Shown one piece after another: positions 5,276-50,158 of a stretch of DNA of 50,936 bases (its first letter is position 1; each line of letters opens with the position of its first letter). The notes beneath the pieces are model-generated. The model had not been told where the DNA came from and ran no database searches. It saw only the letters and a program-made list of their open reading frames with translations. Origin of the DNA: a virus; the IMG/VR virus record IMGVR_UViG_3300023281_000640, positions 1 through 50,936 of that record. The stretch is one strand, 5' to 3'. Both the position numbers and the translations under genes were made by a program.

Positions 5276-5320
5276 AAAAACAACACGTGGTGGTTTGTTG
5301 GTTTTCTACTACAAACGTTG

Positions 5321-5357
5321 GGAGAGGCCGGGTATTACCCCGGTCTCTTTTTTTTTT
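5321..5357 (+). terminator. rho-independent terminator
   Basis: GAGGCC GGGT / ACCC GGTCTC arms form a GC-rich hairpin with an ATT loop and one bulged C, followed by a run of at least ten T (5348-5357). It is unusually GC-rich for this genome and lies about 45 bases after the Cys-rich gene. A weaker GTTTGT/ACAAAC pair lies just upstream (5293-5316). Confidence 0.88.
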
Positions 5358-5386
5358 ATATCTTTACAATAATCAAAAAAAATCTT

Positions 5387-29458: not shown

Positions 29459-32400
29459 ATGGAAAACGAATCAAATACACCATTACAACAACTTAATAGA
29501 GAAGCTGAAAGACCTGCCCCAAGTGTAATACCTGATGGGCAGTTCCGTTTTGAACCTATTGAAGAATTATTTGAAACTCCAGAGGAGAACTTTAATAATT
29601 ATGCTATGAGCGGTGACTTAGCAGCTGATGATATATCAGGTGTTAATGAATATACAGCAGCAATAGATAAATATGGTGTTGGTGCTATGGCAAGTTTAGG
29701 TATAGCTGATCCAGGTCCTGCTACTGATACGTATAATCCTGTTACTCAAAGTAGACCTGATAATACTGAGAACACCTTTTCAATGACAAAAAGGTTATTG
29801 ACTTTAAATGATACACCCGTATCAGAAAAAAAAGTTGCCCCTGCATTTTCAGGAATGAGGCAAACTCAGTTTATGAGATATTTTGAACATCCTGAATTTG
29901 ATAAGTTAGGGTATTCTCCATATTCTAATATGGAAAGTTATTATAATGCAAACTCTACTATCTGGGATGACATGACTAGAATGAGAGGTAATTGGTGGTC
30001 ATTAGTTGGTACAGGATTAAGTTCTGTATATGGATCTATGTTTAGTGGTTCTGATTATCTTGAGCCAGATCTAGATTCAGCTACAGCTTTTGAAGACAAG
30101 ATGGGTATAATGAATTCTACTAGAGGAGGCTTTGGTGGTTTTATGAATAATCTAGCAGCTAACTCTGCATATACAGGAGGTATACTTATATCTATAGCAG
30201 CTGAAGAAGTAATACTAGCAGGTATTACAGCAGCATCTGGAGGTACAGCAGCACCAGCTACTATAGCTAAAACAGGTCTGAATGTTGTTAGAGGTGTTAA
30301 AGGCTTTTTTAGTTTTACAAAAATGTATGAACGTACAAGAGATATACTAAAGCAAGCTAAAGCAATTGAAAATGCTAGAGATTTTTGGGTTGCTGCTAAA
30401 GGTGGTCAAAGATTAAAAGCTGCTGGTAATTTACTTGGTAGAGGTTTTACCCCTAATACAGTAAAAGCATTTAGAGATATAAAGACTGCAAAAAATGCTG
30501 GTCAAAATATGAGCAACCTTGCTAAAATGAATGCAAAGTTTGGTGGTTTTTATAGAGATATGAGAGCTGTTAATTTAGCTATGGCTGAGAGCAAGTTAGA
30601 AGCCGGTATGGCATATAATCAAGTGCTTAAAAATGGTATGAACAACTACGCTGCTGCTAATGGTGGTCAGGGTGTTGATGAATATGAGATGGCTAGAATA
30701 AGTAATGCTGCTGATAAAGCTGCATTTAAAACAATGATGGCTAATGCACCAATAATATATGCAAGTAACTGGTTAGTTCTTGGTAATGCATTAGGCGGTT
30801 TCCAAAGAGGTATTCAGCGTACAGTAGGTTCAGCATTTGGTAAAGGGATTGCTAAAAATGTAATAAATACAGCAGGTAAAAAAGTAGTTGATGCTGCAGG
30901 TAAAGTAATTAAAAATCCTTTTAAATATTTAGGAGGAAAAGAAAAAGGCTTCTTAGGTTTAAAAAGACTGGGTGCAAAGATTACAGCTGCAGGCGGATGG
31001 AAAAGTGTTGCTGGTAGTGGTGGTATAGTTATGTTAGACTACTTTGCAGCCAATGTTGCTGAGGGTATTCAAGAGGTTTCTCAAGAAGCAATATCTGCAG
31101 CTACAGTTGGTTATTATACAGAAATACTACAAAACCCAGCACAAGGTGGTGTTACATTACAGAATCAAATGATACTATCTGCAATGGGTGATCAGTTTTC
31201 TAGTGAAGGGTTTAATGTATTTATGTCTGGTTTCTTAATGGGTGGTCTTGTACAACCTGTACAGAAAGCGTTTATGCAAGGTGTGCCTTCTATATATAAG
31301 TATGGATTGCAAGAAGCCGGTATTGGTTTAGCCACAGCAAAACAAAAAGAAACATTTGCTGAATTTAGAAAGACAAGAGATGAGATGATTGAAAAGATTG
31401 TTGACTCTTATAATAAATCATGGAATGAGCAAGCTATTGATCCATCAGAGTTGTTTGATGTTAATAGATTAAACTTCATGATTCAAAAAGAAATGGCTGA
31501 AAAAATGAAGAAGTCTGCATATCAACAAGACTTCTTTGGGTTTAAAGATGCTGAGGATGCAGCTAAGTTCCAACAGTTTTTTACAATGTTTGAAACAAAT
31601 GGAACAAGACATTTTAGAGATCAGCTATTAGGTTTCTTAGATATGTCTGATACTGAACTAGTTGAGGCATTTCCTGGTGTTAGTAATAAAGACAAAAAGG
31701 ACGGCAAGTTAAGAAAGCGTATAAATGAAACCATTATCCAAATGGATAAGATGGAAGAAAATTACAATAAGCTTAAAGATAAATATGTTAATCCTTTTGA
31801 TGAAACTAAATTTAACCGTAAAACACAAGAGAAAGAATATATAAATGAATTAGTTGCAAGAGCTGGATATGATCATGTACGTTATTTATACATGTTTACT
31901 AATGAAGGTTTTATGTCTGCAGTCAATAGAGCTGATGGAATATATTCAAAACTTGAGGCAGAACCTTTATTTGCAAAAATGGCTGCAAGTGATATTACTA
32001 CTTTACTTGACCCAGAATCAATTGAAAGAGAGATTATAATACTTCAAGAAGAAATAGATGCATTTGAAGGAGCAAATCCAGAAGGTGCGGCAACTGCAGC
32101 GTCACCAAAAACAGAAAAAATTGCAAGACTTAAAGCTATTCAAAAAATTGTAACTGATAAAAAGAATAGATTTAAGAGCGGTACATTCAAGAGAAATAAG
32201 GCATTAAAAGAAAGCTTAAGAAATGAGTTTAAAAATTACGTAAGATTCTTAGCTAAAGAGCAAGGTTCATTTGTAAATGAAGATAATATTGATGCTGCAT
32301 TAACTGATATAGTTGATTACTATGCTTTAGATAATAGAGCAAAAGTATATGACAAAGCTATTGAGTTTATGAATAACCCTGAGAAGTTTGCTGAGATGGT

Positions 32401-35400
32401 AGAAAGATCTCAAGCATTATCTAAGAATAGAATAGAGGGTAGAGCAAAAGAAACTAAAGCCGCTTTAGAAAAATATACTGATATCATTTTAGCAAATCAA
32501 TTAATAAATGATTTAGCTAAAGATCCGGTTGGTGCATATGCAGATGAAGCACAGATGCTACTCTTTTTACAGACAGGAAATGCAAACTTTCTTATAGATT
32601 TTTATGATGAAAACGGTAAAGTTGTTGAGGGTGTTCATGATGTAAAATATAAAATGATACAGTCTCTGATAAGTGTTTATAAATCTACAAGTACGGATCA
32701 GACTACCGAAGAAGAAATAACTCAAGAGCAAAAGGATGAAGCAAAAAGACAAGATGTTGATGAGCAGAAATCTGATTTAGATCTAATGCTTGAGAATGCA
32801 GGTATTAAATTAACTGTTGATACAATAACTGTAAGTCCTTATCTTGATGAGGTACTAAAGAGATCTTATAGAAGTTATAAAGCAAGAATGGCAGCGGCAG
32901 GTAAAACAAGTTTATCTGTACAAGAGTGGAAAAACTCTGCTGAAGCTCAGGAACTAAAGAATGTATTTAATGCTATAAAGCAAGTATGGGCTGCAGGTGT
33001 AATGACAAAAAATGCAGCTGGAGAAACAGTATATGCAAACCCTATAGAGCAATCACTTATTGATTCTGACACAGGGTTTCAAGACTTTTTGTCTACACCT
33101 AAACAAGAATTGCTATCAGAAAATCCGCTAATCACTTCTATATTAAATCAAACAACTATTAAGTTAGATGATATATATGAGCAGCCTGATGTTGCTGATA
33201 ATATTGAGGTTACTGAAAAGCCTTTAAAAGAAGGTGTTATAGCAGACTTATATAAAAGAGTAGTAAAAGTTCCCGGTCAGGATCCTATAACTATTTATGA
33301 GTTGCTAGATAAAAAAGGGAATAAATTAAGTTCAGATTTATTAGATTTTGTTGATCAACAATTTGAATCAACAAGAGGTACATTTAATGAGAATGCTGCT
33401 GCTGCAGCTTATGATGCTTTGTCTGCACTTGATGATCAAGCTCCTGATTCAACAATCTTTGAGTTTGATGGTGTCAGCGGTTTGTTTTATGGAATGTCTG
33501 TATACAAAGGAAATGAGAAGTATATCATAATCCAAAAACCTAACAGCTCAAAGAAATTTGGTAAGAATCAAAAGCTTAGAGTAATTAAAGAATCTAATAA
33601 TGTTGGGCCTATATCAAAAAGAAAGTTTGAATATATAAAGCAAGGAGAGTTTAAAAACGTTTTCTCTGTTGAGGAAGTAACAATGGATGTATTAGATGAC
33701 TCAGTTAGTAAGTTAGATATTGAATCATTAGTCTCCCCTTATGCACATGCTAATAGATCTGACAAGAAAGGTTTATCAGATGAGCAGATAGCACAAGCTT
33801 TAACATATGAAAATGCCGAAGGCAAGGAAAGGCTCAAAGCTATACTAAAAGAACTTACACCAGCTGAAAGAGAACAGCTAGAGTTTGTTGTATATAAAAA
33901 CCCAAATCCACAGACTGTAAAAGATTATTCTGTTCAGAATATGTCTGGGTATCAATATAAAACTGCAAACCCATTAATTAAAAGATATAGTAGTGAATAT
34001 GTTGTGGGTATTAGAATTAATAATACTGTAACACAAGAAAGAATAAACCAAAAACTATTAGAAAAGAAAATACAACCTTCTGATTCAGAAGATGGAATAT
34101 TTGCATACCTGAACAATGGTTCATTTTTAATTAAAGATCAACTTACAGGAGCTAATATAGATCCTAGATCTATGAACTTAAGACAAGCTCAGAATGTAAT
34201 CTATGCTCCATTTGGTAAAAGTATAACTACAGAAGAGCAGTTAGGAAAAATTCAAAAAGCATTTACATTAAACTCTATGCTTACTACAACATTTAATAAT
34301 CTTGGAGTAGCAGAAGAAAAGCAATACTTTAGTATAAATGATTTACCATTTAATATACAACTTAATCCAAAAGGAGGAAGGATTGTATATAGTACTGGTA
34401 ACCCTATTTATATGGATGCATTAGATTATCAATATGCAGATGAAAATAATAACTACTTTATATTTGATTTAAAGTATGATAAAAAACTTGGTAGCAGAAT
34501 ATTTAACTACACCACATCTGCTGAAAATGAAACAGAGTTAAAAGATAAAATCTTAGCTCAACTAGAAACTCAAGGTACTACTAAAGATAGTATGCTGGCA
34601 GGTTCAGACAGATATCTTGCAGCAGTTAAACTACCAAATGGTACTTATGCTTTAGTTAATCTTAAAGCAGTGTCATATACAAAAGAAGAAAAAGAAGCTC
34701 TCTTTGTAGAAATTGTTGGCAAAGCTAAAGAAATTCAAGCAATTAAAGATGATGTCAAAAGAAATGCTGAGGCTATTAAATATAATGAAGAATTATCAGA
34801 GAAATTATTTTTAAGTAGTTATCCTGGAAATCTTATTGATTTAAAAGTTGGGCAAGACGGAAGTATATTTATTCAATTAGATAAACAAAAAGGAGAAGAG
34901 ATAGTCAAGATAGATGATGCAAGCATTGACTTTCCTGTTGTTAATTCAGAAACAGATGCCGTTAAAATAATAGAAAGTTTACTTACCAAGTTTAATAAAA
35001 AAGAAAAAGTTGCTCAAAATAATGCACAAGTAAGAGACAAGAATATAAGAAAGTCTTTTGCAACAGGTGCTCCTGCTCAAGATATAGTGGATAAAAGCAC
35101 AACTGAAGTTGGAATTGAAGTAGTAACAGATAACTCATTGGTTCTTTCTGCTGAGTCAGATGCAATACTAGCACAACAAGCTGTAGCATTTGCAAGTGTT
35201 AGACCCAAGAATGAAGGCAAGAGAGTTGAAGAAGAAACAGAACTACCTGAGATATCAGAAGAGTCTGATGACAGCGTTCTTGATATGACAGAGGATGAAC
35301 TAATCTCTAGAATTGATAATGATTTCCAAGGTCATCCTGTAGGCATTGAGCATATAATAAATAAAATGCTTAGAGGAGAACGTCTCAATGAAGCAGAAGA

Positions 35401-38400
35401 AAAAATGATGAAGAATCCTGTTATTTCTAATGGGGTTAATTTACGTGTTGCTGCTGCAGGAGGTATAGGTAGTCTTAAACCACAAGAAAAAACAAAGGAG
35501 ACAACATTAGATAAAGAAAAAGCTAAGCTTAAAGAATTAAAAGCTACACTGACAGAAGGATTAAAAGGTGCAGCTAAAATTGATGCATTAGATGGAAGCA
35601 AAGAATATCAAAAGCAACTTGCAATAGTTAAAAAACTTTCTAAGACAGCAAACAAATTAGTTGAAACAACTACTGAAGTAGAAAGAATAGAAGACTATAA
35701 TGAGTTTTTAGATTGGGCAAATGAATCATTACCTTCTATAATAGGTATAGAGGATGTACTTACTCTAGCAGATAACGGAATAAGTAAAGGTTATAAAAGA
35801 GTTGGTGCGTTTGTTTTAGATATACATAAAATAGCAGGAGGAGTAAGTGTAAACGGTACTGTATACGTTGGTGCTAATAATCCTTTTAAATATCATGAAG
35901 CTTTTCATGGTGTTTTTAGAATGCTACTTACACAAGAACAAATAGATAGATACAGAAAACTTGCTAAGTCAGAGTTAAAAGGTAAGTATGGTTCAAGGTA
36001 TAAGGCTGAATTAGAAAAGTTTAGAACAACTGCAAAACAATACGAAGATCTTTCTGACATTGAATTAGAGAATGAGTTTGTAGAAGAATACATGGCTGAT
36101 GAATTTGAAGCATTTAAAAAAGATCCTAGAAGTACTAAAACTAATACAGAGATTAAATCACTCTTTACTAAAATAATTGAATGGATTAAAGGCGTGTTAT
36201 CTAAATATACACCTAATGAATTACAAACATTATATGAAAATATTGATGCTGGTAAATTTAAAAGTGCAACTGTACAATTAAATGAGTTTACGTCAGATGC
36301 TGGAATTACTGTTGCAAATGCATTGGTAAGACATGATGTAGTATCTAAAGATGAAGACGTATCAGGATTTCTATATCTTGATTCAATGATTATTGATCCA
36401 TTGATTAGATCTATGGCAGGTATGTTTATAACTAGAGTTAATAACTTAAAAGAAACAAACTATAGCCCTAATGATGTTTATCAGGGTCTTGCACGTGACT
36501 TTAGAATTTTACTTGATCCAGAAGATGCCAGCAATGAAATTTTAGGAGCAGGAAAAGTAAGACAACTTGAAGAGTTAGAGAATGCATTTACTAATTACCC
36601 AGAAGATATAAAGAAAGAAGTTTTTAGTTTGCTTGATATAATATCAGATCAAGATAAAGAAAGTGAGTTTAAATCAGAAATATCAGAAGACTCAACCGGA
36701 TTAAGAAAAGCAGATGAATTTGACAAAGATGCGTCTACAATAGGAGGATTTAATTCATTAAGCAAAAAGGTAAGATCTTACATTGCTACTTCAACAATGA
36801 AAGATGTAGACTTTTTTGGTAAGGCAGAGTTAACAGAAGGGGAGCCTTTAATTATTCCTGTTAAATTTAATGAAGCATATAACGGTTTATTAAAAGCTGT
36901 GTCTAATATTAGTGATCAATCAGTAATGCTTAAGCGTATGTATGCATACTCAAGGTTAAATCCTAACATGGCTGCTGTAGTTGACAAACTATTTAATGAT
37001 ACAAACTTAGATATAAACGCTCTGGCTTCTGAATCTCCATTCTTAAATGTAAGTAATACTAGTCTATTGCAATCAATGCTTAAAGGTTTTGAAAACTACA
37101 AGGTAGATTATATATTTAATGAAAGAGATGGAGCAGGAAACATATTAATATATACTGCATCAGAACGTGATGATATTAACTCACAGTTAGATGAGTGGTC
37201 ACAAGCATATATAACTAAAAGAAAAGAATTAAACTTAGATGAATCTGGTACAAAAATAAATAACTTGCTTGATTTAGTTAAAAACATGTCTTTGATTTTA
37301 GGTAACAAAACCAAATACTTGACTAATGAAAAGACTAATGAGAAAGCCAGAGAGCATTCTCAAAAATTATTTGATATAACAGGTATAAGGTTAAGTCCAA
37401 TGTATTTAAACTATAGTTATATTAAGACTTTTGATTATGCTCAATTAGACGCAGCACAAAAAGTATTATATAATGCTTACTCTATAGAGCCTGTATCAGA
37501 ACAATTCTTGGTGACTTTGTATGATCTTATGTATAGAGATGATAATATTTTCTCTAAGAAATCAGATGGTATGGCATCTAGACTTACTTATATAAGTTTA
37601 AATAATGCAGCCTTTGATGAAACAATTGGTGCGTCATCATTTATTAATCCAAATGGAGATTTAGTTTATGGCCACCAACTTCCAACTTATCATCTGAAGG
37701 CAGTAGCTGCATTAAATAGTGTAAGTAAAATAGATGAATTATCAAACGATGAATACCTAAGCAACAATTATTTATTAAATAATGAAGCATTTAGAAATTT
37801 ATCATCTCAAGGTAGAATAAAAGTAATTAGAATTGCAGGTAGTAAAATAAAATCCATTGTTACAACAGATCTTAATGATGGTGTTGCAGAAGACATATTA
37901 AATACATCTTTAAATGATAGTAAGTCTACACAAAGCTTTGGAGAGTTCACACCAAAAGAGTTTGCTGTATCATTAATTAACAACTATGTATCTAATTTTA
38001 ATAGAAGAAAAGGAGATGTTGATTCAGTAGAGGGTGTTGGTAAATTGCCTATAGCAACTGCACCTGTATTTTTAAGAGTAATGGAAGCAGCCAATACAGG
38101 AGACCTGGTGTCTTTACCTGTAATAAAAGCAGTAACCATGAATGGTGAAAATGTTGAGCTTACACCACAACTTGTAAATGCATTTATAGATAGAATAGGT
38201 TCAGAGTTTGAAAGAATAAATAGAGAAGCTATTGCTTTTGATGAACTTGGAGATAATATCCAAGGATATAACGATACTATGCAGGGTAGAGCATTTAGTT
38301 TTGTAAATACAGGTCTGTTGTTAGATCCTATTACTCAACAAACATTAGCTAATGTAGCTATCAAAGCAGGAGAACAAAAACAAGTAATGACTTTTGATCA

Positions 38401-41400
38401 AGGGGTCAAGTTAGCTTTAGGTGTCTCAAGTTCAATTATAAGAAAAGAAGTTACTGGAAATCTAAATGCGTCTTTTGAAGAGTTCAATGAATTAATTACA
38501 AAACTAAAAGTAAAAGATAATTTATCAACTCAAGTTAGGCAAGGATTGCAAGTAGGAGAGGGAGTTGCTAGAACAAAGGTTGAACTGGCAGGTAGTCAAT
38601 TAAATTTAAATACCAACGAATCTCATAACCTTCAACAGATATTTTTTAATAACTGGATTAACGCAGCGTCTATCAATGATCTTCTATTAGGTGATCAAGC
38701 TGTGACACTACAAAGTATGGTTGATAAAGTTAAAAGAGCTAAGTTAAATAATGCTGCATACTATAGTGCATACAGTGCATTAACTGCTCCTGAACTTGGA
38801 ATTAATCATGCAAGTACAAACTTTGATATGTTTGTATTTGATGAAATAACAGAGCAATCATCTTTAACAGGTAATAATATTGATAGTGCAGATGCACAAG
38901 CATACATTACAACTAAAGGATCAAGGTATGCTACATTTGGTTTTGGTAGGTTAAGCCCTTCTATGGCCAGCATGTATGACACACTTGACATCGGGGAGGC
39001 ACCAACTAGTGATGCTATTTTTGGAACTGAAGAAAAACCTATAGGCCTTGCAAAAAAACAAGAACTTATAAATTCTAAAAAGTATGTTTACATGGACGGT
39101 AAAACAGCAGTTAAAATGTCTGTTACTGTCTTAACAAAAGACTATACTTCTAATTATAATGCAGAGTTAGGCAAGTGGGAAGCTAAACCAACTATGAAAC
39201 AGCTTCATTATTTACGTGAGCAAATGGAAGCTAATGAAGAAGCTAATAAAAACTTTGCTATGGCTGCTCCATTATCAGCTGTAAAGATGATGAAGGATAC
39301 TGTAAACAAATTAAATGATGACTCTAGCGGTTTTGATTTAAGTCAGGATTTAAAATCTACCAAATTAAATACAGAGTATTTAGGACTTCAAGTTGTTCAG
39401 CCATCTAATAAGATGGAAATTACTGACATGACTCAGATTAAAGATATAATTACATCAGAGCAAGATGATACTGTTGAAGTTCCTGGAATGGGCTTAAATG
39501 AAAGCGGTAAGGTAATGACAATTGGTGATGTAAGAAGATTATATAATGATGCAATATCACAAAGGGTAACACTAAAATATAAAAATAAAAGAAATCTGGT
39601 ATTTAATTTTGATACAGTATTAGATGAATTTAAATTATCTAAAAAGAAAGGTGCTATAACACCTAACCTTGGAGCATTTTTAGATTATGCACAAAATTCT
39701 TTAAAGGCCTCTGGCTCAGCATCAAATTTATTAGAGTTTTTTACATCAGATAAAAATGAACAAAAGTTTAATCTTAATAATCCTTTTACGGCTAAGAAGT
39801 ATGAACAACTATTCCTTTCATACTTTAGTAAGGGAACCTTAAGAGAAAGCGTTCCTGGTACAGCCTTGGCTTTAGTATCATCTTTTGGTACTAGATACTA
39901 TAGAAAAGTGTATGAAGTTAAAAATGGTATACCGGTAAGATCAGAAATATTAAGGGCAACCCAATACAAAGGTGACGCTGCAGACAGAGTTCCTGGAGAT
40001 GGTGTTTATCCAGAAGGTATAGTTATTCTAGATGTTTTAAGAACAGGAATGATGGGTTATACTAACCCTGCTGATGAATCTACTAAAACAGGTGAAAGAT
40101 ATAGTGAAGTTGTTATGCCAGCAATGGATAAGAATGTAATGGACTTGATTGCTAATACAGGTGCTAATATCCCTGAAGTTATATCTAAGATGTTTGGTGT
40201 GCGTATACCAACTCAAGATAAACACTCTGCTGTAAACATAAAGGTTGTAGATTTTCTACCTGCTTATTATGGTTCTTCTGCTATATTTCCTAAAGAAATA
40301 GTTGAAGTATCAGGTGCAGATTTTGATATAGATAAAGTATATGCAAAAATTAAAGAGTATTATTTAGATAAAAATAATAATTTTATAGAGTTTGGTAAAG
40401 GTGATCCATATACAGAGTATGTTAAAAATATAAACAACCTAACAGCCAAACCAGATACAGTTTATAATAAAGCTGCATCAATGTTTAATAATGATCAGCT
40501 TGCTATTAGAATGGATAATGCTTTATCCCCGCAAGAAATGAATAGATTAACTGATCAAGAAGGTGAGAATAAATTTAATGAGAATTCTTTAAGAGCTGCT
40601 TTAGCTCTTGGTTTGCCAGCAACTAAAAATCAGTTTGCTGACTATGTTAAAAAGCACGGTAACCCTAATGAAGCAGTATTAAATAATAATATTTTAGACT
40701 ATAGTTATGCACTTGTTGGTAATGAAGGTATGACAGGTAATGAATTACTTAGACAAGATCTTAAAAAAGATTTACCTATTGCATATCAAGCAGCAGATAT
40801 AGAAGTATTGAAGACTGCATTTGACCAACTTGTAGCTAATCCAGAAATACAACTTTTTAAAGATAGACAAGATTCTCCTGTTGATGTAGATTCACTGACT
40901 GGTATGATTAAATCTTTTGAAGCAAACAAGGGAGCAGCTATTGGTGCTGTAGTATTACCTAACGTATATCTTAATTTATTAACTGAATATAATATTCAGC
41001 TATTTAAACCTTTTAAATTAGGCAATGATACATATAATGGGTTTGGAGAAAAGCTTATCAACGGAGAGAGAAAACAAGATATAATTTCTTCTTTAGTTAC
41101 AATGGAAACAGATAATGCTAAAGAAAGGTTTATATCTAAATTGGGATTAAACATACATGCTGTAGGTATGGCTGCCAATATGATTTCACTAGGTATACCT
41201 TTAGAAACAACATTGCTTTTATTAAACTCTGCTGAAGTTAGAGATCTATATGACTTATCTCAGAACAAAGTTGATAATACATCTCCAAGTTTAAAGGCAT
41301 TAGTTAGTAGTAGAATAACATCTTTAAAAGCAAAAGTAACAGAAGAAAAAAATAAAAATGGAAAAGTAAAGTTTGCCTTAGTAGATAAAAACTTACTTGT

Positions 41401-43231
41401 AAAAGCTGTAGATAGCACTAAAGACTTAAGTGATAATGAAAGATTACAAATCTTATACGCTTTTCAAAGGCTAGACAAAATAAAAAATTGGACTTCAAAA
41501 ATGAGACCTGCTGTTGTTTTATCACAAGGGTTGCCTCAAAATGTTCCAAGTATTAAGAAGAACATTGAAGATTTACAATTTCTGTTTGGAAGTGAAGCTC
41601 AAGCAGATGTAAGTAAAATTTTTAAAAGCAATACATGGCAAAGTAATAACCTTAAAATCTTTAGTCAGATTTACACAGATCTATTACCAAATGCTCTTTT
41701 AACAATGTCTCCTGAGTTTATAGAAATATTACGCCCAGTTAATGATAATCTAGATGTTGATAATGATAACTTTGGATTTGAAACTGCAGCAAAAGTAGAA
41801 CAAGATTTACTTTCTTATTTAACAATAAAGAGCTATCAGCATTTATTAAACAATAGTTCTGGCAATGCAGCACCGGTTACAAACAATTTAATTTATCCTG
41901 GTCCAATAAATGAAGCAGACTTATCTATTGTTAAAATGATAAGGGATGAAAAAACAAGAAGGTCAGAGAACAATGAAGAAACTAATTTCTTTTTAGATTC
42001 ATTTGTAGGAACTGAGTATGCAACTGACAACGGGAATAGAACAGGATTAAACATAGCTACTGCAAATACTTGGAGAAGATTAAATGCAGCAAACATGATT
42101 GATCTTCAAACTTCTTTTGCAAAATTATATGGTGGATTAGAAACAAGAGATTTAGCAATATCTATTCTTCATTATATGATGGTTAAAGACGGCTTGCAAT
42201 TGAAGTATGGTTCTTTATTAAAAGCAATGAGCCCCTTTGTTATGGAAAAGTATCTTAATAATGTAGATACAGTTGAACTAGCATTAAAAGGAATTGTCCC
42301 TTATGAGAAAGCATTTGGCATAACAAAAGAAGAACTTATAGAAGAATTTAAGGAAGGTTACTTACAGTCTAATCCAACAGGTCCTATACTACGTAACTAT
42401 AAAACAAGTGAACCATTTCTTGAATATCTTCCTGTTGAAGAAGTAGTTTATCTTCAAGATGAAATGGAAGATAATGGTAAAATGGTTGATTACTTTAGAT
42501 TAGATCTTAGTGATCCTATAACTAAAATGTATAAGCTTTTTAAACGTGATCAGGATGTAGACACTGAGAATGGAAAAGTTGCATATAAATTAGTTCCATC
42601 AATGGGATCTAACCAGCAATTTGCTGCAGGTTTTGTAGGTGGTCCAAGATTAACATATGATCAGACAAGAAATATCAACAGTAACATTCCAGCTAATAAA
42701 GCTGTTAAACCAGCAGAACAAGCTGGTGAGTCTGCTGGTGCAAGTGTTGGTGTTAGCGCTGTAGAAACAGAGCAAAAACAAGATGTATTAAGAACTCCTG
42801 GTGCAATCATTGAAGTTACAAACAACAGCCTAGAGGTAAAAGAAAATGAAGGAGATAAAAATACTAATATAGCAGATACAGCAAAAGCACTTGAAGAGTT
42901 GTCAGGTTTAACAGCAAGTGGTATCTTTGATGAAGTGGCTAATGCTGATATGGAGAACAACTCACAGAGCTTAGATTCTAAGACTGAAGAACAACAAAGT
43001 CAAGAAGATCAATTAAAACTAGATTTAACTGAGTCAGAAGAAATAAGTGAGGTTGCAAGTCTTGAGCAATGGTGGGCTGATAATGTTGCTGGTAATACAG
43101 AGGCAGAAAAGAAAATGAGTGAGCAAGGTATAAGCTCTTTACAAGATGCTATGTTTGCATATGGAGATTTGTTTTCACAAACGGAGCTTGGAGAACAAGA
43201 ACTAATAGATAGACTTAAATGTTTACTATAA
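29459..43231 (+). CDS. giant virion RNA polymerase polypeptide with zincin motif
   Basis: This 4590-residue protein is the largest in the window. Near the N-terminus (about 120-170) is a conserved-looking FEHPEFDKLGYSPYSN segment, then Ala/Gly-rich hydrophobic stretches and long coiled coils. HEAFH at 2146-2150, with EEYMADEFEAF about 55 residues later, is a zinc metallopeptidase signature. RNA polymerase features follow: a beta-like barrel segment near 3210-3340 (AVKMSVTVLTKD, K3276, LGLQVVQPSNKMEI); VRIPTQDKHSAVNIKV and then GADFDIDK with the catalytic D3621, D3623 and D3625; and a trigger-loop-like segment near 3881-3895 (ETDNAKERFISKLGLN). The DFDID triad is the catalytic motif reported for the phi14:2 virion polymerase, which is roughly half this length. 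It is likely packaged, ejected and used for early transcription. The C-terminus is acidic and disordered. Tandem TAA stops end it. Confidence 0.85.
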   Translation: MENESNTPLQQLNREAERPAPSVIPDGQFRFEPIEELFETPEENFNNYAMSGDLAADDISGVNEYTAAIDKYGVGAMASLGIADPGPATDTYNPVTQSRPDNTENTFSMTKRLLTLNDTPVSEKKVAPAFSGMRQTQFMRYFEHPEFDKLGYSPYSNMESYYNANSTIWDDMTRMRGNWWSLVGTGLSSVYGSMFSGSDYLEPDLDSATAFEDKMGIMNSTRGGFGGFMNNLAANSAYTGGILISIAAEEVILAGITAASGGTAAPATIAKTGLNVVRGVKGFFSFTKMYERTRDILKQAKAIENARDFWVAAKGGQRLKAAGNLLGRGFTPNTVKAFRDIKTAKNAGQNMSNLAKMNAKFGGFYRDMRAVNLAMAESKLEAGMAYNQVLKNGMNNYAAANGGQGVDEYEMARISNAADKAAFKTMMANAPIIYASNWLVLGNALGGFQRGIQRTVGSAFGKGIAKNVINTAGKKVVDAAGKVIKNPFKYLGGKEKGFLGLKRLGAKITAAGGWKSVAGSGGIVMLDYFAANVAEGIQEVSQEAISAATVGYYTEILQNPAQGGVTLQNQMILSAMGDQFSSEGFNVFMSGFLMGGLVQPVQKAFMQGVPSIYKYGLQEAGIGLATAKQKETFAEFRKTRDEMIEKIVDSYNKSWNEQAIDPSELFDVNRLNFMIQKEMAEKMKKSAYQQDFFGFKDAEDAAKFQQFFTMFETNGTRHFRDQLLGFLDMSDTELVEAFPGVSNKDKKDGKLRKRINETIIQMDKMEENYNKLKDKYVNPFDETKFNRKTQEKEYINELVARAGYDHVRYLYMFTNEGFMSAVNRADGIYSKLEAEPLFAKMAASDITTLLDPESIEREIIILQEEIDAFEGANPEGAATAASPKTEKIARLKAIQKIVTDKKNRFKSGTFKRNKALKESLRNEFKNYVRFLAKEQGSFVNEDNIDAALTDIVDYYALDNRAKVYDKAIEFMNNPEKFAEMVERSQALSKNRIEGRAKETKAALEKYTDIILANQLINDLAKDPVGAYADEAQMLLFLQTGNANFLIDFYDENGKVVEGVHDVKYKMIQSLISVYKSTSTDQTTEEEITQEQKDEAKRQDVDEQKSDLDLMLENAGIKLTVDTITVSPYLDEVLKRSYRSYKARMAAAGKTSLSVQEWKNSAEAQELKNVFNAIKQVWAAGVMTKNAAGETVYANPIEQSLIDSDTGFQDFLSTPKQELLSENPLITSILNQTTIKLDDIYEQPDVADNIEVTEKPLKEGVIADLYKRVVKVPGQDPITIYELLDKKGNKLSSDLLDFVDQQFESTRGTFNENAAAAAYDALSALDDQAPDSTIFEFDGVSGLFYGMSVYKGNEKYIIIQKPNSSKKFGKNQKLRVIKESNNVGPISKRKFEYIKQGEFKNVFSVEEVTMDVLDDSVSKLDIESLVSPYAHANRSDKKGLSDEQIAQALTYENAEGKERLKAILKELTPAEREQLEFVVYKNPNPQTVKDYSVQNMSGYQYKTANPLIKRYSSEYVVGIRINNTVTQERINQKLLEKKIQPSDSEDGIFAYLNNGSFLIKDQLTGANIDPRSMNLRQAQNVIYAPFGKSITTEEQLGKIQKAFTLNSMLTTTFNNLGVAEEKQYFSINDLPFNIQLNPKGGRIVYSTGNPIYMDALDYQYADENNNYFIFDLKYDKKLGSRIFNYTTSAENETELKDKILAQLETQGTTKDSMLAGSDRYLAAVKLPNGTYALVNLKAVSYTKEEKEALFVEIVGKAKEIQAIKDDVKRNAEAIKYNEELSEKLFLSSYPGNLIDLKVGQDGSIFIQLDKQKGEEIVKIDDASIDFPVVNSETDAVKIIESLLTKFNKKEKVAQNNAQVRDKNIRKSFATGAPAQDIVDKSTTEVGIEVVTDNSLVLSAESDAILAQQAVAFASVRPKNEGKRVEEETELPEISEESDDSVLDMTEDELISRIDNDFQGHPVGIEHIINKMLRGERLNEAEEKMMKNPVISNGVNLRVAAAGGIGSLKPQEKTKETTLDKEKAKLKELKATLTEGLKGAAKIDALDGSKEYQKQLAIVKKLSKTANKLVETTTEVERIEDYNEFLDWANESLPSIIGIEDVLTLADNGISKGYKRVGAFVLDIHKIAGGVSVNGTVYVGANNPFKYHEAFHGVFRMLLTQEQIDRYRKLAKSELKGKYGSRYKAELEKFRTTAKQYEDLSDIELENEFVEEYMADEFEAFKKDPRSTKTNTEIKSLFTKIIEWIKGVLSKYTPNELQTLYENIDAGKFKSATVQLNEFTSDAGITVANALVRHDVVSKDEDVSGFLYLDSMIIDPLIRSMAGMFITRVNNLKETNYSPNDVYQGLARDFRILLDPEDASNEILGAGKVRQLEELENAFTNYPEDIKKEVFSLLDIISDQDKESEFKSEISEDSTGLRKADEFDKDASTIGGFNSLSKKVRSYIATSTMKDVDFFGKAELTEGEPLIIPVKFNEAYNGLLKAVSNISDQSVMLKRMYAYSRLNPNMAAVVDKLFNDTNLDINALASESPFLNVSNTSLLQSMLKGFENYKVDYIFNERDGAGNILIYTASERDDINSQLDEWSQAYITKRKELNLDESGTKINNLLDLVKNMSLILGNKTKYLTNEKTNEKAREHSQKLFDITGIRLSPMYLNYSYIKTFDYAQLDAAQKVLYNAYSIEPVSEQFLVTLYDLMYRDDNIFSKKSDGMASRLTYISLNNAAFDETIGASSFINPNGDLVYGHQLPTYHLKAVAALNSVSKIDELSNDEYLSNNYLLNNEAFRNLSSQGRIKVIRIAGSKIKSIVTTDLNDGVAEDILNTSLNDSKSTQSFGEFTPKEFAVSLINNYVSNFNRRKGDVDSVEGVGKLPIATAPVFLRVMEAANTGDLVSLPVIKAVTMNGENVELTPQLVNAFIDRIGSEFERINREAIAFDELGDNIQGYNDTMQGRAFSFVNTGLLLDPITQQTLANVAIKAGEQKQVMTFDQGVKLALGVSSSIIRKEVTGNLNASFEEFNELITKLKVKDNLSTQVRQGLQVGEGVARTKVELAGSQLNLNTNESHNLQQIFFNNWINAASINDLLLGDQAVTLQSMVDKVKRAKLNNAAYYSAYSALTAPELGINHASTNFDMFVFDEITEQSSLTGNNIDSADAQAYITTKGSRYATFGFGRLSPSMASMYDTLDIGEAPTSDAIFGTEEKPIGLAKKQELINSKKYVYMDGKTAVKMSVTVLTKDYTSNYNAELGKWEAKPTMKQLHYLREQMEANEEANKNFAMAAPLSAVKMMKDTVNKLNDDSSGFDLSQDLKSTKLNTEYLGLQVVQPSNKMEITDMTQIKDIITSEQDDTVEVPGMGLNESGKVMTIGDVRRLYNDAISQRVTLKYKNKRNLVFNFDTVLDEFKLSKKKGAITPNLGAFLDYAQNSLKASGSASNLLEFFTSDKNEQKFNLNNPFTAKKYEQLFLSYFSKGTLRESVPGTALALVSSFGTRYYRKVYEVKNGIPVRSEILRATQYKGDAADRVPGDGVYPEGIVILDVLRTGMMGYTNPADESTKTGERYSEVVMPAMDKNVMDLIANTGANIPEVISKMFGVRIPTQDKHSAVNIKVVDFLPAYYGSSAIFPKEIVEVSGADFDIDKVYAKIKEYYLDKNNNFIEFGKGDPYTEYVKNINNLTAKPDTVYNKAASMFNNDQLAIRMDNALSPQEMNRLTDQEGENKFNENSLRAALALGLPATKNQFADYVKKHGNPNEAVLNNNILDYSYALVGNEGMTGNELLRQDLKKDLPIAYQAADIEVLKTAFDQLVANPEIQLFKDRQDSPVDVDSLTGMIKSFEANKGAAIGAVVLPNVYLNLLTEYNIQLFKPFKLGNDTYNGFGEKLINGERKQDIISSLVTMETDNAKERFISKLGLNIHAVGMAANMISLGIPLETTLLLLNSAEVRDLYDLSQNKVDNTSPSLKALVSSRITSLKAKVTEEKNKNGKVKFALVDKNLLVKAVDSTKDLSDNERLQILYAFQRLDKIKNWTSKMRPAVVLSQGLPQNVPSIKKNIEDLQFLFGSEAQADVSKIFKSNTWQSNNLKIFSQIYTDLLPNALLTMSPEFIEILRPVNDNLDVDNDNFGFETAAKVEQDLLSYLTIKSYQHLLNNSSGNAAPVTNNLIYPGPINEADLSIVKMIRDEKTRRSENNEETNFFLDSFVGTEYATDNGNRTGLNIATANTWRRLNAANMIDLQTSFAKLYGGLETRDLAISILHYMMVKDGLQLKYGSLLKAMSPFVMEKYLNNVDTVELALKGIVPYEKAFGITKEELIEEFKEGYLQSNPTGPILRNYKTSEPFLEYLPVEEVVYLQDEMEDNGKMVDYFRLDLSDPITKMYKLFKRDQDVDTENGKVAYKLVPSMGSNQQFAAGFVGGPRLTYDQTRNINSNIPANKAVKPAEQAGESAGASVGVSAVETEQKQDVLRTPGAIIEVTNNSLEVKENEGDKNTNIADTAKALEELSGLTASGIFDEVANADMENNSQSLDSKTEEQQSQEDQLKLDLTESEEISEVASLEQWWADNVAGNTEAEKKMSEQGISSLQDAMFAYGDLFSQTELGEQELIDRLKCLL

Positions 43232-43245
43232 TAAAAAGATAAGAA

Positions 43246-46200
43246 ATGGCTAAATGTTATAATAGAAATGATCCTGGATATCAAGCATTAAAAGATGTTT
43301 ATAAATCTGATTTACGTACTTCTCAAGTTATTAGTAATTGGCAAGAGGTAAACGAATCTGATATTTTTCCAAGTCCTGTTCAAGCTAAAGCAATGGTTTC
43401 TGATCAAAAGATTGTATTTAGTTTACAGCAAAAAGACTTTGGTACAGCTGTGCTTGATAATGTAAGAAGAGAAAAAATTGGAAGTAGATTAGCGGGACAG
43501 TTTCTTATAAATAATTCTAATCCTGATACTTTACTATATGATGAGTCTTTTTTGCAAAATAATTTAAAAAGATTTTATAGGTATTTAGAAATTAATAATA
43601 TACCTGAATCAGCTTTTAGTGTAACTAGAACAAAACAAAGTTATAAAATAGAGCCTATTAACAGTGTATTTACTAGAAGAGATCTATTAGAAAAATCAAG
43701 ATCTTGGGATACAAATAGATCAAGAGCTGTAGTGATGCATTTAAAAAGAATGTTTCCACAGGTTGATGTAAAAATGATATCAGTTGAACAAGCCAGAGTA
43801 TTATTAGAAAGCTTGCCAAAGTATAATACCAAAGATGTAGGGTTTAAAAATGTTAAGTCTTTTTATTATAATGGAGTAGCATACTTAATTAAAGGTAGAG
43901 TTACTGATGAAATAGCAATTGAAGAAATGCTGCACCCTTTTATAGATGCAGTAAAAATGGAAAATGAACAACTGTTTAATAATTTATTAGATGAAGCAGT
44001 AACTAATTTTCCTGAACTATCCGAACAAATAAAAGATGCATACAATAATCAATCTAGAAACTTTAGTGAAACAGAAAGAGATCTAGAAATTGTAACGCAG
44101 GCTTTGGCCAGACACTTCAAAAAAGAATATGAAAGTAAACCAACAAAAGGTTTCTTAAACGCAATTGGTGAATTATTAGAATGGTTTAAAAGCGTTATAG
44201 AAAACTTAAGTATTTATCTTACAGGTAGACCCTTACCTGTGTCAGCTATAGTAGCTAGCACATCTATGAGTGATATAGCAAAACTACTAAATACAGAAGG
44301 AATTCAGTTTAAGTTGGAGAAAAGAGTAAATGGAAATGTAAGATATAACTTATCAAAAGAAAAAGCATCTGAATTAAAAGCAGCAAGAGCTAAAGCAAAT
44401 CCACTTCAAAAGCCAATAATAGATCAACTATTTAATCTAGCTCAACTTGAAAAACAAGTAGTACATCAGTTTTCTACTTCTGAAAAAAACGCTGCTGCTG
44501 GTGATACACTGGTAGTATTAAATGAAAAAGATCATGTGTACTATAATCCAAATAAGACCAAAGATATATATACATCAGCTACAACAGCTATCAAAGGAGT
44601 CTTATCTCCAACTAAAGTAGTTGAACATAGACTTAATCTTGAAATTGGTAATGAAGTAGATACTTTATTGGAAGGCGTTATTGGAGACTTAAAATTTAAT
44701 GCTGCATATAAAAACCTAAAGACCAATAATATATCTAAGGAAAAAGCAAAAGAGGTATATGATACATTAGATTCTATAATAGAAAACTACCGTGAGACAG
44801 GATCAATTATTTTATCACAAGTAGTATTGTTTGATGAAGAAACAAAAATAGCAGGTATGGCTGATATTTTTATCATTGATGCAAAGGGTAAAATTAGAAT
44901 TTTTGACTTAAAGACAAGTAAAAATAACCTGGATGATGTAAATGATGATGGTATTAAAAAGTATAATTTTCCATACTCATTGGGTAATGACAGCAGGCTT
45001 TTGCAATACGGTGTAACTAAGTTGTCTACACGAGCACAACACAACCTACAGGTCTCTTTATACAGAAGGATGGCTGAGAACATGGGTTATGAGGTTGCAT
45101 ATGATGAGTTTGCTATGGCAACTATACATTTCCATGTAGGAGTAGAAGGAAAAGGTGTTGATCAAGTATTTAATGGTGAGGTAAATTATGATAGAATAGA
45201 GCCACATCCAATAAGCACTCAGTTAGATAAGGTAAATAAATTAATACCTATATCAAGGAACTCTGCTAAGAAAGACTCACTGTCAAAAAAACAACGTGAT
45301 GCATACAATGCAAGGTGGGATGGTAAAAATGAAAAGACAGAAACAACAGAGCAAGATAAAAAAGATGCAGAAGGATATACAGAATATAATATTCATGCCG
45401 GTCTACTAGAAAACTATATGAATAGACTAATTGATAAGAGAGATCTTATACCTTTAGTAAAGAATAGTATTTATCTTCAGTCTACTCAACAAAAAGAGAT
45501 TGATCAGATATCAAAGACCATTGCATATATTGCAATTGCACTGTCTGAAGATGCCGGAAAACAATCAGTTGTTTTATCTGAGGTATTGCAGGATGCATTA
45601 CAACAAATAAAAGAATTTAGGGCTTATATGGAAGACCCTAATAACATTGATAAGCCTGAGTATTTATCATATGCATTACATTTTGAAAAATATCTAGAAA
45701 CATTTAAAGGCCTATATGAGTTAACAGATCTAATTGGCTTAAACAATACACAGAAAAATTTAATTTTATCACTACAAACTCAGCTGAATGCACTTAACGG
45801 GTCTAAGTCAGACAGAGGTATTGTTGACAATGCATTATATGATTACGTTCAAGAGCAAGTAAGACAAAAGTCTAGTAATGATTATGGTGGTGAAGGAAGT
45901 TACTTCACTAAAGAAGACCTTGATTTGGTCATGAAATTTGCTGCAGACATTGATGGAATAGAGTATCAGACCAGAGACATGGATACATCAGGAGATGTTT
46001 TGCTTTCTGTCATGGCTAAAATTAGAAAGGTACAAACACAAAAATTATTAGATAAGGTATCACAAAGAGAAAGTATAATTAGAGCTGCAGGGCAAAAACT
46101 AGTTAAACTTAATCCAGGCATAGATCTAAAAGATCTTTATAATTTTATGCTTGAGTTTGTAGAGATTGACGGAGACCAAGTATTTAGTGGACAGTATGTA

Positions 46201-49017
46201 AAAGCACTAAGCCAAAAGTATAATATAAAGCAAGATAAATTAAGATCTGTTTTATCAGATAATGAAGGTACATGGTATGAGTATAGACCAGTATTTAATT
46301 TAGAAGAAGCTCAAAAAACAAAGCAAGGTAGAGAAGATATTAAGTGGAACATAGACTTAGCCAATAAGAAAAGAGCATACAGTGATTTTTTTCAAGCAGA
46401 AGATAAAGATGAAAATGACAAGCTAATAGATGGTATGTACCATAAGTATACTCAAGAATTTAAAAACGCAAGAGCTAAGTATGAAATTTGGAATCCTGGT
46501 ACTGAAGCAGCTACAAGAGGTTATTGGCAAAAAAGAGAAAGTGTTACACAAGCAGATTGGATTACATACCGTGCTAGATACTTTGATAGAAAGCCTTATA
46601 CAAAAGCAAATAGAGTAAACGGTGCACCAGATGGTACAATTCAGATTGTAGGAGAAAACTTTGATGCTGTAAGGCCAGAGTATGTAGAAGCAGTATTAGA
46701 ACCAAGAAATGGGGACAGCATGACTAATCCAAAATACAAAGATATTATGGATCCTAATAAGACAGATGCTTTATCTATTGCACAAAGAGAGTTTTATGAA
46801 ATGTATGTAAATATGTTTGAAAAAGACCTTCTTAAAAAAATACCAATTGGTATAGCAGCTGACATGTTAGGAAGAGCACCTTTAGTAATGAACAGATTAT
46901 TAGATCAAGTGTCTAGTAAAGGAACTTTGTATAGTAAGATGTATGCTAAGGCTGCCCGTACTAAGGCTTGGAATATGTTTAAAACAACTCAGCAGCAAAA
47001 AAATATACAAGTAGACAATCAGGGTTATATAATAAATCAACTTCCAATATACTATACAGGTAGACCAAGAACAGATGAAGAAAGAGCTAGTGTTCAAAAA
47101 GATATTGATATATTAAAAGATCTATATAAGAAGAATAAAATAACAAGAGATCAATACAAGGATGATATTGCTATTTTAAATGGTAAGATGTCTAAGATTA
47201 TGTCTACTCCAGCATTGGGACAAATAGACACAGATATGGCTTCTAGTTTACTTAAGTTTAGTGCAATGGCAGAAAACTTTGAAACAATGGGTCAAATTGA
47301 TGATACACTAAATGCTTTTGTTAAAGTTATTGAACAAAGAACATACACACCTGCCCCGTCAGCTGGAATAAACTTGGTTAGCAGAACAGCTAATAAAATA
47401 ATAACTAACGTAGGTACTAAAGCTAATAGAACTGAACAACAAAAGAATGTTGTAAGAAGAGCTAAAAAGTTTATGTCAATGGTTCATTATGATAATGAAT
47501 TAGTAACTAAAGGTGCATGGGATAAAATAGCTGATGGTATTATTCAGTTTTCTTCTTTATCATATGTAGCATTTAACCCGTTTGGTAACTTTAATAACTA
47601 CTTAATTGGTAGACTAAACAATAATGTAGAAGCATTAGGTGGTAGATTCTATTCTCAAGCTGCATTTAAAAGAGCAACCTGGGAATTTAATAAAAGAGCC
47701 TTACCAGCATTAGTACAAAGAACATCACACGGAGGTGCAGAAGATTTACTTGACGTAGTTACATTAGGAGTAATACCCGGATTAGCTAAAGCAGATTATA
47801 ATAAAAAATTACCTAATAATAAATATGAGGCTTTTGTTGACAGGTTTAGAATGATGGATAACATGGCTGATCTACGTGAACAAAGTATGGCTACTGATGG
47901 AGGTAAGAGCTGGTTTGATAGAGCAACTGAATGGGGTTATATAATGCAGGATGCTGCCGAGTATAACTCTCAAACTAAAGTTGGTATGGCTATCTTAATG
48001 GATTATATGATAGAGGATGACGGAGGTAACTCTTTATCTTTATTTGATGCTTTTGAATATGATACAAAAACTCATAGTAACATTTTAAAACCAGGATATA
48101 AGTTTCTTATTAAAAGAGATGGTAGCAAGGTTGAATGGAATGATGATATGAGATATGAAATAAGAAATGAAATCAGAGAAGTCAACAAGCAGATTCACGG
48201 TAACTACGCTAAAGATGATAGAATGGTTTTACAATCTCATACCCTTGGGAATCTTGCTGTTCAATTTAAAAAGTGGGTTGCTCCTGCAATTAGAGCAAGA
48301 TATCAAAGAGAGTATTTTGATCAGAACTTAGGATGGATGGAAGGTAGATATAGATCTGCTTTATCATTTATAAACTATGCAATGAAAGAGGTCTTTGTAA
48401 ATCAGAACACTCATTTTAAAACAATGGGTAAAGATTATATGGATTCTCAAGTAAACTACTATAGTAATGAAAAGTATGGTGTAGATAGAAAGTATGGAGA
48501 AGGAGGTAACATGGATCAAAGAGCTAAGAATAAACTATTTGGTTTTTATAGAACTATGGGTGAATTAGGAATAATGTTTAGTGTTATGTTCACTTCAATG
48601 ATGCTTGATAAAATTTTAAGAGGAGATGATGATGATACTGATTTTGAAAAAAGACTTAAAAACTTAACAAGATACCAAGCAGATAGAGCTTATAAAGAAT
48701 TGGTATTATTTATGCCTTCTTTTGCCGGTGCTAAGCAAATTGATCAAATGGCAAACTCTCCTATTGCTTCTGCTAGATCTGTAACAGAAATGTCAGAGTT
48801 CCTGGAAATGTTTATTGTTGGAAATGCCAGATATGGATTATCAAAAATAACAGGTAATGAAGAAAAATTCTTATCTAACTCTTCATATGTATATCAAAGA
48901 GGAGATAGAAAAGGAGAATTTAAAGTTCATAAAAACTTTAGAGATGTATTTCCAATTGTTTATTCAATACAAAAATGGAAATCTTATATTAAGAATGCTG
49001 ATTTCTATATTAAATAA
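43246..49017 (+). CDS. giant virion protein with PD-(D/E)XK nuclease motif and degenerate zincin motif
   Basis: A 1923-residue protein in a different frame from the polymerase gene, 14 bases after it. Near 226-230 it has EEMLHPF where related domains have HExxH; the first His is Glu, so the peptidase is probably inactive. Residues about 430-610 carry a RecB/Cas4-like PD-(D/E)XK nuclease pattern: GMADIFIID (D540), FDLKT (D554, K556) and QVSLY (Q602, Y606). The middle is helical and charged. The last 250 residues include hydrophobic segments (ELGIMFSVMFTSMMLDKI) that could contact the host membrane during ejection. It may trim or protect incoming DNA, or act on host DNA next to the polymerase. 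The start ATGGC has an A-rich leader. Confidence 0.75.
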   Translation: MAKCYNRNDPGYQALKDVYKSDLRTSQVISNWQEVNESDIFPSPVQAKAMVSDQKIVFSLQQKDFGTAVLDNVRREKIGSRLAGQFLINNSNPDTLLYDESFLQNNLKRFYRYLEINNIPESAFSVTRTKQSYKIEPINSVFTRRDLLEKSRSWDTNRSRAVVMHLKRMFPQVDVKMISVEQARVLLESLPKYNTKDVGFKNVKSFYYNGVAYLIKGRVTDEIAIEEMLHPFIDAVKMENEQLFNNLLDEAVTNFPELSEQIKDAYNNQSRNFSETERDLEIVTQALARHFKKEYESKPTKGFLNAIGELLEWFKSVIENLSIYLTGRPLPVSAIVASTSMSDIAKLLNTEGIQFKLEKRVNGNVRYNLSKEKASELKAARAKANPLQKPIIDQLFNLAQLEKQVVHQFSTSEKNAAAGDTLVVLNEKDHVYYNPNKTKDIYTSATTAIKGVLSPTKVVEHRLNLEIGNEVDTLLEGVIGDLKFNAAYKNLKTNNISKEKAKEVYDTLDSIIENYRETGSIILSQVVLFDEETKIAGMADIFIIDAKGKIRIFDLKTSKNNLDDVNDDGIKKYNFPYSLGNDSRLLQYGVTKLSTRAQHNLQVSLYRRMAENMGYEVAYDEFAMATIHFHVGVEGKGVDQVFNGEVNYDRIEPHPISTQLDKVNKLIPISRNSAKKDSLSKKQRDAYNARWDGKNEKTETTEQDKKDAEGYTEYNIHAGLLENYMNRLIDKRDLIPLVKNSIYLQSTQQKEIDQISKTIAYIAIALSEDAGKQSVVLSEVLQDALQQIKEFRAYMEDPNNIDKPEYLSYALHFEKYLETFKGLYELTDLIGLNNTQKNLILSLQTQLNALNGSKSDRGIVDNALYDYVQEQVRQKSSNDYGGEGSYFTKEDLDLVMKFAADIDGIEYQTRDMDTSGDVLLSVMAKIRKVQTQKLLDKVSQRESIIRAAGQKLVKLNPGIDLKDLYNFMLEFVEIDGDQVFSGQYVKALSQKYNIKQDKLRSVLSDNEGTWYEYRPVFNLEEAQKTKQGREDIKWNIDLANKKRAYSDFFQAEDKDENDKLIDGMYHKYTQEFKNARAKYEIWNPGTEAATRGYWQKRESVTQADWITYRARYFDRKPYTKANRVNGAPDGTIQIVGENFDAVRPEYVEAVLEPRNGDSMTNPKYKDIMDPNKTDALSIAQREFYEMYVNMFEKDLLKKIPIGIAADMLGRAPLVMNRLLDQVSSKGTLYSKMYAKAARTKAWNMFKTTQQQKNIQVDNQGYIINQLPIYYTGRPRTDEERASVQKDIDILKDLYKKNKITRDQYKDDIAILNGKMSKIMSTPALGQIDTDMASSLLKFSAMAENFETMGQIDDTLNAFVKVIEQRTYTPAPSAGINLVSRTANKIITNVGTKANRTEQQKNVVRRAKKFMSMVHYDNELVTKGAWDKIADGIIQFSSLSYVAFNPFGNFNNYLIGRLNNNVEALGGRFYSQAAFKRATWEFNKRALPALVQRTSHGGAEDLLDVVTLGVIPGLAKADYNKKLPNNKYEAFVDRFRMMDNMADLREQSMATDGGKSWFDRATEWGYIMQDAAEYNSQTKVGMAILMDYMIEDDGGNSLSLFDAFEYDTKTHSNILKPGYKFLIKRDGSKVEWNDDMRYEIRNEIREVNKQIHGNYAKDDRMVLQSHTLGNLAVQFKKWVAPAIRARYQREYFDQNLGWMEGRYRSALSFINYAMKEVFVNQNTHFKTMGKDYMDSQVNYYSNEKYGVDRKYGEGGNMDQRAKNKLFGFYRTMGELGIMFSVMFTSMMLDKILRGDDDDTDFEKRLKNLTRYQADRAYKELVLFMPSFAGAKQIDQMANSPIASARSVTEMSEFLEMFIVGNARYGLSKITGNEEKFLSNSSYVYQRGDRKGEFKVHKNFRDVFPIVYSIQKWKSYIKNADFYIK

Positions 49018-49885: not shown

Positions 49886-50158
49886 TTACTGAGATAAATA
49901 TGTTTGTATAAAATGCACAGTCCATGCAATCAAACCATTTAAGTTCAATACAACTAAGTTCCATTGCTTACGAGATGCTGTTTGAACTATAACAAAAACA
50001 AAACCTATCATAAATAAAACTGGTTCTAAAGTCCATTGAGCAGAAATCAAAAAGCCTGCACCCATGTAACCTACACGGGATGCAACTTTCTGATAAGTAG
50101 TAAGTTTATTATTATAAGAAAATAAGCTAATTATATTTTCTTTTAATTTACCCTTCAC
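49886..50158 (-). CDS. small membrane protein downstream of nrdA
   Basis: This 90-residue protein starts with GTG at 50158, overlapping the end of nrdA by 11 bases, so it is probably translationally coupled to it. A basic N-terminus (MKGKLKENIISLF) is followed by two or three hydrophobic segments (about 28-40, 43-60 and 68-84; for example LEPVLFMIGFVFVIVQ). I do not recognise the family. Coupling to ribonucleotide reductase suggests a nucleotide-metabolism or transport role, but a small membrane protein could do many other things. Confidence 0.65.
   Translation of the reverse strand: MKGKLKENIISLFSYNNKLTTYQKVASRVGYMGAGFLISAQWTLEPVLFMIGFVFVIVQTASRKQWNLVVLNLNGLIAWTVHFIQTYLSQ

Follow-up and report, generated by a model that had tools for sequence, protein, structure and literature searches.

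A giant open reading frame of an uncultured crAss-like phage joins homologues of the cargo protein gp47 and the RNA polymerase gp50

An uncultured phage related to the crAss phages that are common in the gut encodes a protein of 4590 amino acids that, with a probability of roughly 80%, is a translational fusion of a gp47-like cargo protein, including its C-terminal zincin domain, and a gp50/gp66-type RNA polymerase (RNAP). We analyzed all 50,936 bases (the window) of a virus record in IMG/VR; the record is a fragment, and the contigs that carry relatives reach about 118 kb. The open reading frame (29459–43231, + strand) runs from ATG through a stop codon with 4590 codons and no internal stops, for a predicted mass of 511 kDa. 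Purifying selection acts on the frame (dN/dS of 0.05–0.20, depending on the region), except for the last 270 amino acids. Both halves are homologous to proteins that are separate in crAss phages, and in profile alignments they are collinear with gp47 and gp50. If the modules are swapped, the N-terminal part matches gp50 with E = 0.24 and the C-terminal part matches gp47 with E = 0.33. Given the homology to both proteins and the clean swapped, reversed, and shuffled controls, we place counterparts of gp47 and gp50 in one frame. Scans of the full protein against Pfam and PHROG matched no families, and sequence searches of the PDB with protein and profile queries gave nothing significant. The structure of phi14:2 gp66 (6VR4) was reached solely through structure comparison.

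The RNAP module spans amino acids 2300–4320 (36356–42418, + strand). A first-pass annotation had already described a 4590-residue polypeptide with a crAss-like RNAP core, and the open frame and the match to gp50 uphold this description. For the alignments to gp50 and gp47, the window-side profile was built from a non-redundant set of 44 sequences. Against a profile of gp50 and gp66, amino acids 2406–4312 align to residues 275–2210 of crAss001 gp50 (1646 columns, E = 9e-44), which is nearly all of gp50, so the homology is full-length; reversed and column-shuffled controls gave E = 0.19 or worse. A tblastn search with amino acids 3001–4590 against 50,697 phage records found 106 of them, with crAss-like phages leading (best E = 1e-15), and several of the matches are annotated as RNA polymerases or as crAss RNAP catalytic subunits. 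Amino acids 1–3000 had no tblastn matches in the same 50,697 records.

Predicted structures agree with the alignments. The AlphaFold model of amino acids 2960–4150 (pLDDT 83, pTM 0.83) has 6VR4 as its best solved match in the PDB (E = 1.1e-27, TM-score of 0.63 by query length), followed by QDE-1, with a weaker match to gp96 of phage P23-45. As had been proposed, the region around D3621 is thus modeled with a gp66-type fold, and a beta-like part, a beta-prime-like part, and a trigger loop share one chain. The model of amino acids 2040–2960 is less confident (pLDDT 74), and its sole significant match in the PDB is also 6VR4 (E = 1.6e-11), which implies that the enzyme starts soon after the zincin domain. 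The first-pass annotation had placed more than 3000 residues ahead of the core, which is too many: the part that is homologous to gp66 and gp50 starts at about amino acids 2300–2406, so the extension ahead of a complete gp66-type enzyme is about 2300 amino acids. (In phi14:2 gp66 itself, DFDID is found at residue 1361 of 2180.)

The expected catalytic motifs are present where they had been reported. VRIPTQ (3581–3586) and DFDID (3621–3625) belong to the block VRIPTQDKHS...GADFDID (40199–40333, + strand), which corresponds to the beta-prime-like barrel with its metal-binding motif; the DxDxD sits in this barrel and pairs with the motif of gp50 in the alignment. DNAKE (3885–3889; 41111–41125, + strand), in the trigger-loop region, is aligned to DNVKD of crAss001 gp50. 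Upstream, the beta-like barrel stretch (39113–39286, + strand) includes the invariant residues K3219 and K3276, which may be the catalytic lysines. Across 14 relatives with 31–79% identity to the window, the motif residues vary little or not at all, and D3621, D3623, D3625, and the preceding R-I-P are invariant in all 44 relatives. The predicted structure has both barrels in a single chain that folds like gp66. From sequence and models, we identify this module as a two-barrel, single-chain, crAss-type RNAP with conserved catalytic motifs. In a tree of RNAP cores, the fused clade together with Spirosoma sequences is set apart from the crAss families (support 100/100); the tree is midpoint-rooted with long branches, and either the fused or the split state may have come first.

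It is quite improbable that this RNAP is made in the cell rather than packaged, or that it is no longer active. In favor of this, no RNAP core was found in the large neighboring proteins that we tested from Lbo-JY46, phi4:1, and csAssE, which have relatives of the N-terminal module; those from Lbo-JY46 had no DFDxD polymerase. But the catalytic motifs are invariant and the module is under purifying selection, and the RNAP shares its chain with a homologue of a cargo protein and sits in a block of structural and cargo genes.

The N-terminal module covers amino acids 1–2030 (29459–35548, + strand; the boundaries are approximate). Within it, amino acids 344–1021 (30488–32521, + strand) are homologous to residues 304–879 of crAss001 gp47 (E = 5e-13); the remainder, including amino acids 1022–2030, is assigned to the gp47-like module by position and collinearity. 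Controls with reversed or shuffled templates gave E = 0.029 or worse. Profiles of this module also match the phi4:1 gp038/csAssE pair (E = 2e-9) and Lbo-JY46 (E = 9e-8), and phi4:1 gp038 carries a structural annotation from MS/MS. A hydrophobic segment at amino acids 241–259 (30179–30235, + strand; Kyte-Doolittle mean of 1.79) is only suggestive of a membrane helix, as the Kyte-Doolittle value is above 1.6 in 22 of the 44 relatives.

Between the two modules lies a probable zincin-type metalloprotease domain (amino acids 2031–2280; 35549–36298, + strand), identified from its sequence, which ends the gp47-like part. In profile comparisons, amino acids 2082–2271 match residues 2101–2294 of crAss001 gp47 (E = 3e-9). 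The domain has the lowest dN/dS along the chain (0.054). Its HEAFH motif (amino acids 2146–2150; 35894–35908, + strand) has a counterpart in the YHEAFH of crAss001 gp47 (2341 amino acids, HExxH at 2157), and HExFH is invariant in the 44 relatives. The candidate third ligand is E2209 or E2210 (36083–36088, + strand); both glutamates are invariant in the same set. Similarity to solved or curated proteases was not significant: the best PDB sequence match was to a Pro-Pro endopeptidase (E = 0.38), the fold search returned no proteases, and there were no Pfam matches. The role of the N-terminal part had been posed as an open question, with ejection, priming, promoter recognition, and proteolysis as options; it is now accounted for as a gp47 homologue with a zincin, and of those options, ejection and proteolysis fit best.

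After the RNAP comes a fast-evolving C-terminal tail (amino acids 4321–4590; 42419–43228, + strand) with dN/dS near 1. The tail is 56% identical to that of a homologue that is 90% identical overall, in an ungapped comparison in which indels may inflate the divergence. The final ~70 amino acids (within 42419–43228) are recognizable across relatives.

The arrangement is conserved: we collected 211 complete fused ORFs with both motifs from many samples. These range from 4283 to 5223 amino acids, depending on the start codon. Some contigs were fetched repeatedly, and 44 sequences remain after redundancy removal. That an assembly artefact joined two genes has a negligible probability and is refuted by this conservation. 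A few relatives do show the chain in two pieces, but these breaks are inside the RNAP module at differing places and never at the gp47/gp50 junction. We also considered if the broken homologues (L037, L078, and L106) represent a natural split into beta and beta-prime, and rejected this: the breaks are frame changes at differing places, each in one contig, and resemble errors made in sequencing or assembly. In another contig (L189:4808-14689), an unrelated N-terminus of 1731 amino acids takes the place of the gp47-like part together with the first ~700 amino acids of the RNAP module, which reflects either a module exchange or a chimeric contig.

Across lineages, the same series of cargo, zincin, RNAP, and gp49-like modules is cut at different gene boundaries. 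For example, a genome scan of Spirosoma terrae found an N-terminal module of 1993 amino acids (E = 4e-13), a zincin-like domain plus RNAP in 3581 amino acids, and a third ORF of 1513 amino acids that is gp49-like (E = 5e-10). S. oryzae has a matching ORF with the zincin-like domain and the RNAP, followed by an ORF of 1512 amino acids. Two other cases, crAssphage KP06 and a Bdellovibrionales MAG, instead have the RNAP joined to the gp49-like part. As the zincin-like domain opens the RNAP ORF in Spirosoma, these genomes support a functional link between zincin and RNAP. The Spirosoma domain has its first catalytic histidine replaced (EExFH) and is still part of the RNAP chain, so the zincin domain may have a connecting role in addition to an enzymatic one. 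The blocks in S. terrae KCTC 52035 (L298, 573,714 bases) and S. oryzae DSM 28354 (L295, a 228,862-base contig) lie within large contigs of isolates, which suggests prophages.

Immediately downstream of the fusion, a partner protein of 1923 amino acids (43246–49017, + strand) is a homologue of the RNAP-associated gp49 (tblastn, E = 1e-21; crAss001 gp49, E = 2e-14). Upstream are a muzzle-like tail protein of 2170 amino acids (8886–15398, + strand), which matches phi4:1 gp042 (E = 4e-20) and the csAssE "Muzzle protein," and an ORF of 865 amino acids (20495–23092, + strand) with weak similarity to cargo protein 1 (gp45) of crAss001 (58 columns, E = 5e-5). Between these two, an ORF of 1678 amino acids (15398–20434) contains the peptidoglycan-binding domain PF01471 (E = 1e-7) and has weak matches to endolysins; it is probably a tail-associated cell-wall enzyme. 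The order of muzzle, small cargo genes, gp47/gp50, and gp49 parallels phi14:2 g071–g065, whose products are annotated from MS/MS of virions. The window also has a DNA-repair exonuclease gene among the tail genes (5318–6610) and, at its end, a gene or gene fragment for the large subunit of ribonucleotide reductase (50148–50900, - strand).

A sister contig, with 95% identity in the 1923-amino-acid protein, encodes a crAss-like TerL and major capsid protein (MCP), and each of the eight sister contigs that we tested has a gene for a portal protein related to the one in phi14:2. There are crAss-like homologues of TerL, portal, MCP, and muzzle, at ~22–29% identity, and the MCP and muzzle are nearest to those of Lbo-JY46, csAssE, and phi4:1. 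In a broad sense, the clade can be called crAss-like. The cyanobacterial Leptolyngbya phage Lbo-JY46 (L040, PP438436.1) has the MCP, the muzzle, the N-terminal module, and the gp49-like protein in common with the clade. There are also matches in MAGs of Pseudomonadales, Campylobacteraceae, and Neisseriaceae, which may be binning errors.

How might such a chain work? In crAss001, gp47, gp49, and gp50 were found in virions by mass spectrometry (PMC10172136), and the virion RNAP of phi14:2 makes early, rifampicin-resistant transcripts (PMC10136315). With crAss001 and phi14:2 as a guide, the 511-kDa chain would be packed in the capsid and extruded through the tail, probably with the N-terminal module first and partly unfolded. 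In the cell, it would refold and, independently of the host polymerase, transcribe the early genes of the phage. Through the fusion, the cargo module and the polymerase would be supplied at a 1:1 ratio and in a fixed order, and the zincin is probably active while the chain is ejected or shortly afterward, or else works as a connector. Alternatively, the chain may be a polyprotein: the zincin would cut between the gp47-like part and the RNAP in the course of ejection or later, so that these two function as separate proteins, and cargo, zincin, RNAP, and gp49 would be one functional unit with shifting boundaries. The zincin sits precisely at the junction of the two modules, is under stronger constraint than any other part of the chain, and keeps its motif in the 44 relatives, and the corresponding parts are separate proteins in crAss001 and phi14:2. 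Still, self-cleavage seems unlikely to us: the Spirosoma zincin and RNAP remain fused despite the loss of the catalytic histidine, crAss001 gp47 retains the zincin although its RNAP is already separate, and we did not identify a cleavage site.

The fusion physically ties gp47, a crAss cargo protein known mainly as "RNAP-associated," to the polymerase. Because the two are fused in one lineage and are neighbors in others, gp47 and the RNAP probably act together. The crAss tail has constrictions of under 50 Å (PMC10172136), which raises the question of how a half-megadalton chain would pass through them and then refold to a working enzyme.

The enzyme and the cargo protein are each known, and it is their conserved fusion that is a new arrangement; a literature search found no earlier description of a conserved gp47+gp50 fusion, but one may exist. 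Size alone is not novel, as crAssphage KP06 gp44 has 4070 amino acids and crAss RNAP genes reach "up to ~6000 aa" (PMC10136315). In crAss001 (Steigviridae), the homologues of all three parts, gp47, gp49, and gp50 (DFDVD at 1483), are encoded by separate genes, with gp49 and gp50 on the strand opposite gp47, whereas the window has gp47 and gp50 in a single ORF, with gp49 next to it on the same strand. The single-chain, two-barrel RNAP of phi14:2 (gp66, PDB 6VR4), the best structural match for both of our models, has 2180 amino acids and is separate from its upstream neighbor g067 (1797 amino acids). No zincin was detected in g067, and a test for a degenerate N-terminal zincin in gp66 gave no support for one (best E = 0.019 over 48 columns). 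KP06 gp44 is likewise a giant fused RNAP chain, but its RNAP is joined to the gp49-like part and not to the zincin protein; KP06 gp45 is annotated as an RNAP-associated protein fused to a zincin protease. The Spirosoma elements share the module order of the window and its joining of a zincin-like domain to the RNAP, and differ in that the N-terminal module is a separate ORF (in S. terrae), the zincin is without its first catalytic histidine, and there are ~850–1070 additional C-terminal residues.

Two-barrel RNAPs are not the only ones to be found in giant proteins. N4-like phages carry an RNAP of the T7-type polymerase fold, which is unrelated, inside a much larger ejected virion protein. The example from phage DEV has 3398 amino acids (PMC10925440). 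In the Thermus phage P23-45, gp96 is a giant chain with a two-barrel RNAP and a metallopeptidase (PMC10770324), and one might suppose that, as in gp96, the N-terminal part in the window is a tape measure that sets tail length and carries the RNAP along. The comparable size of gp96 (5002 amino acids) and its combination of metallopeptidase, membrane domains, and RNAP (PMC10770324) would fit, but we disfavor this reading as very improbable. The domain order is reversed: in gp96, from a long-tailed phage, the RNAP is at the N-terminus of a tape-measure fusion, whereas in the window it occupies amino acids 2300–4320 and its partner is homologous to gp47 and not to a tape measure. Furthermore, the crAss-type muzzle in the window and the crAss-type portal in the sister contigs fit a short-tailed virion. 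Finally, the cultured Flavobacterium phage FPSV-S29 has ~2000 amino acids and then an RNAP in one "structural protein" of 4419 amino acids (L300:9971-23230; MK764449.1, 33971–47230), and the polymerase is not named in the record. The RNAP is at amino acids 2018–4101 (E = 1e-27), with DYDID at 3240. Its N-terminal part has no detectable homology to the N-terminal module of the window or to gp47, and unlike in the window, an HExxH (at 4197) lies C-terminal to the RNAP. With its comparable giant chain, this cultured phage could make an experiment on the passage of such chains possible.
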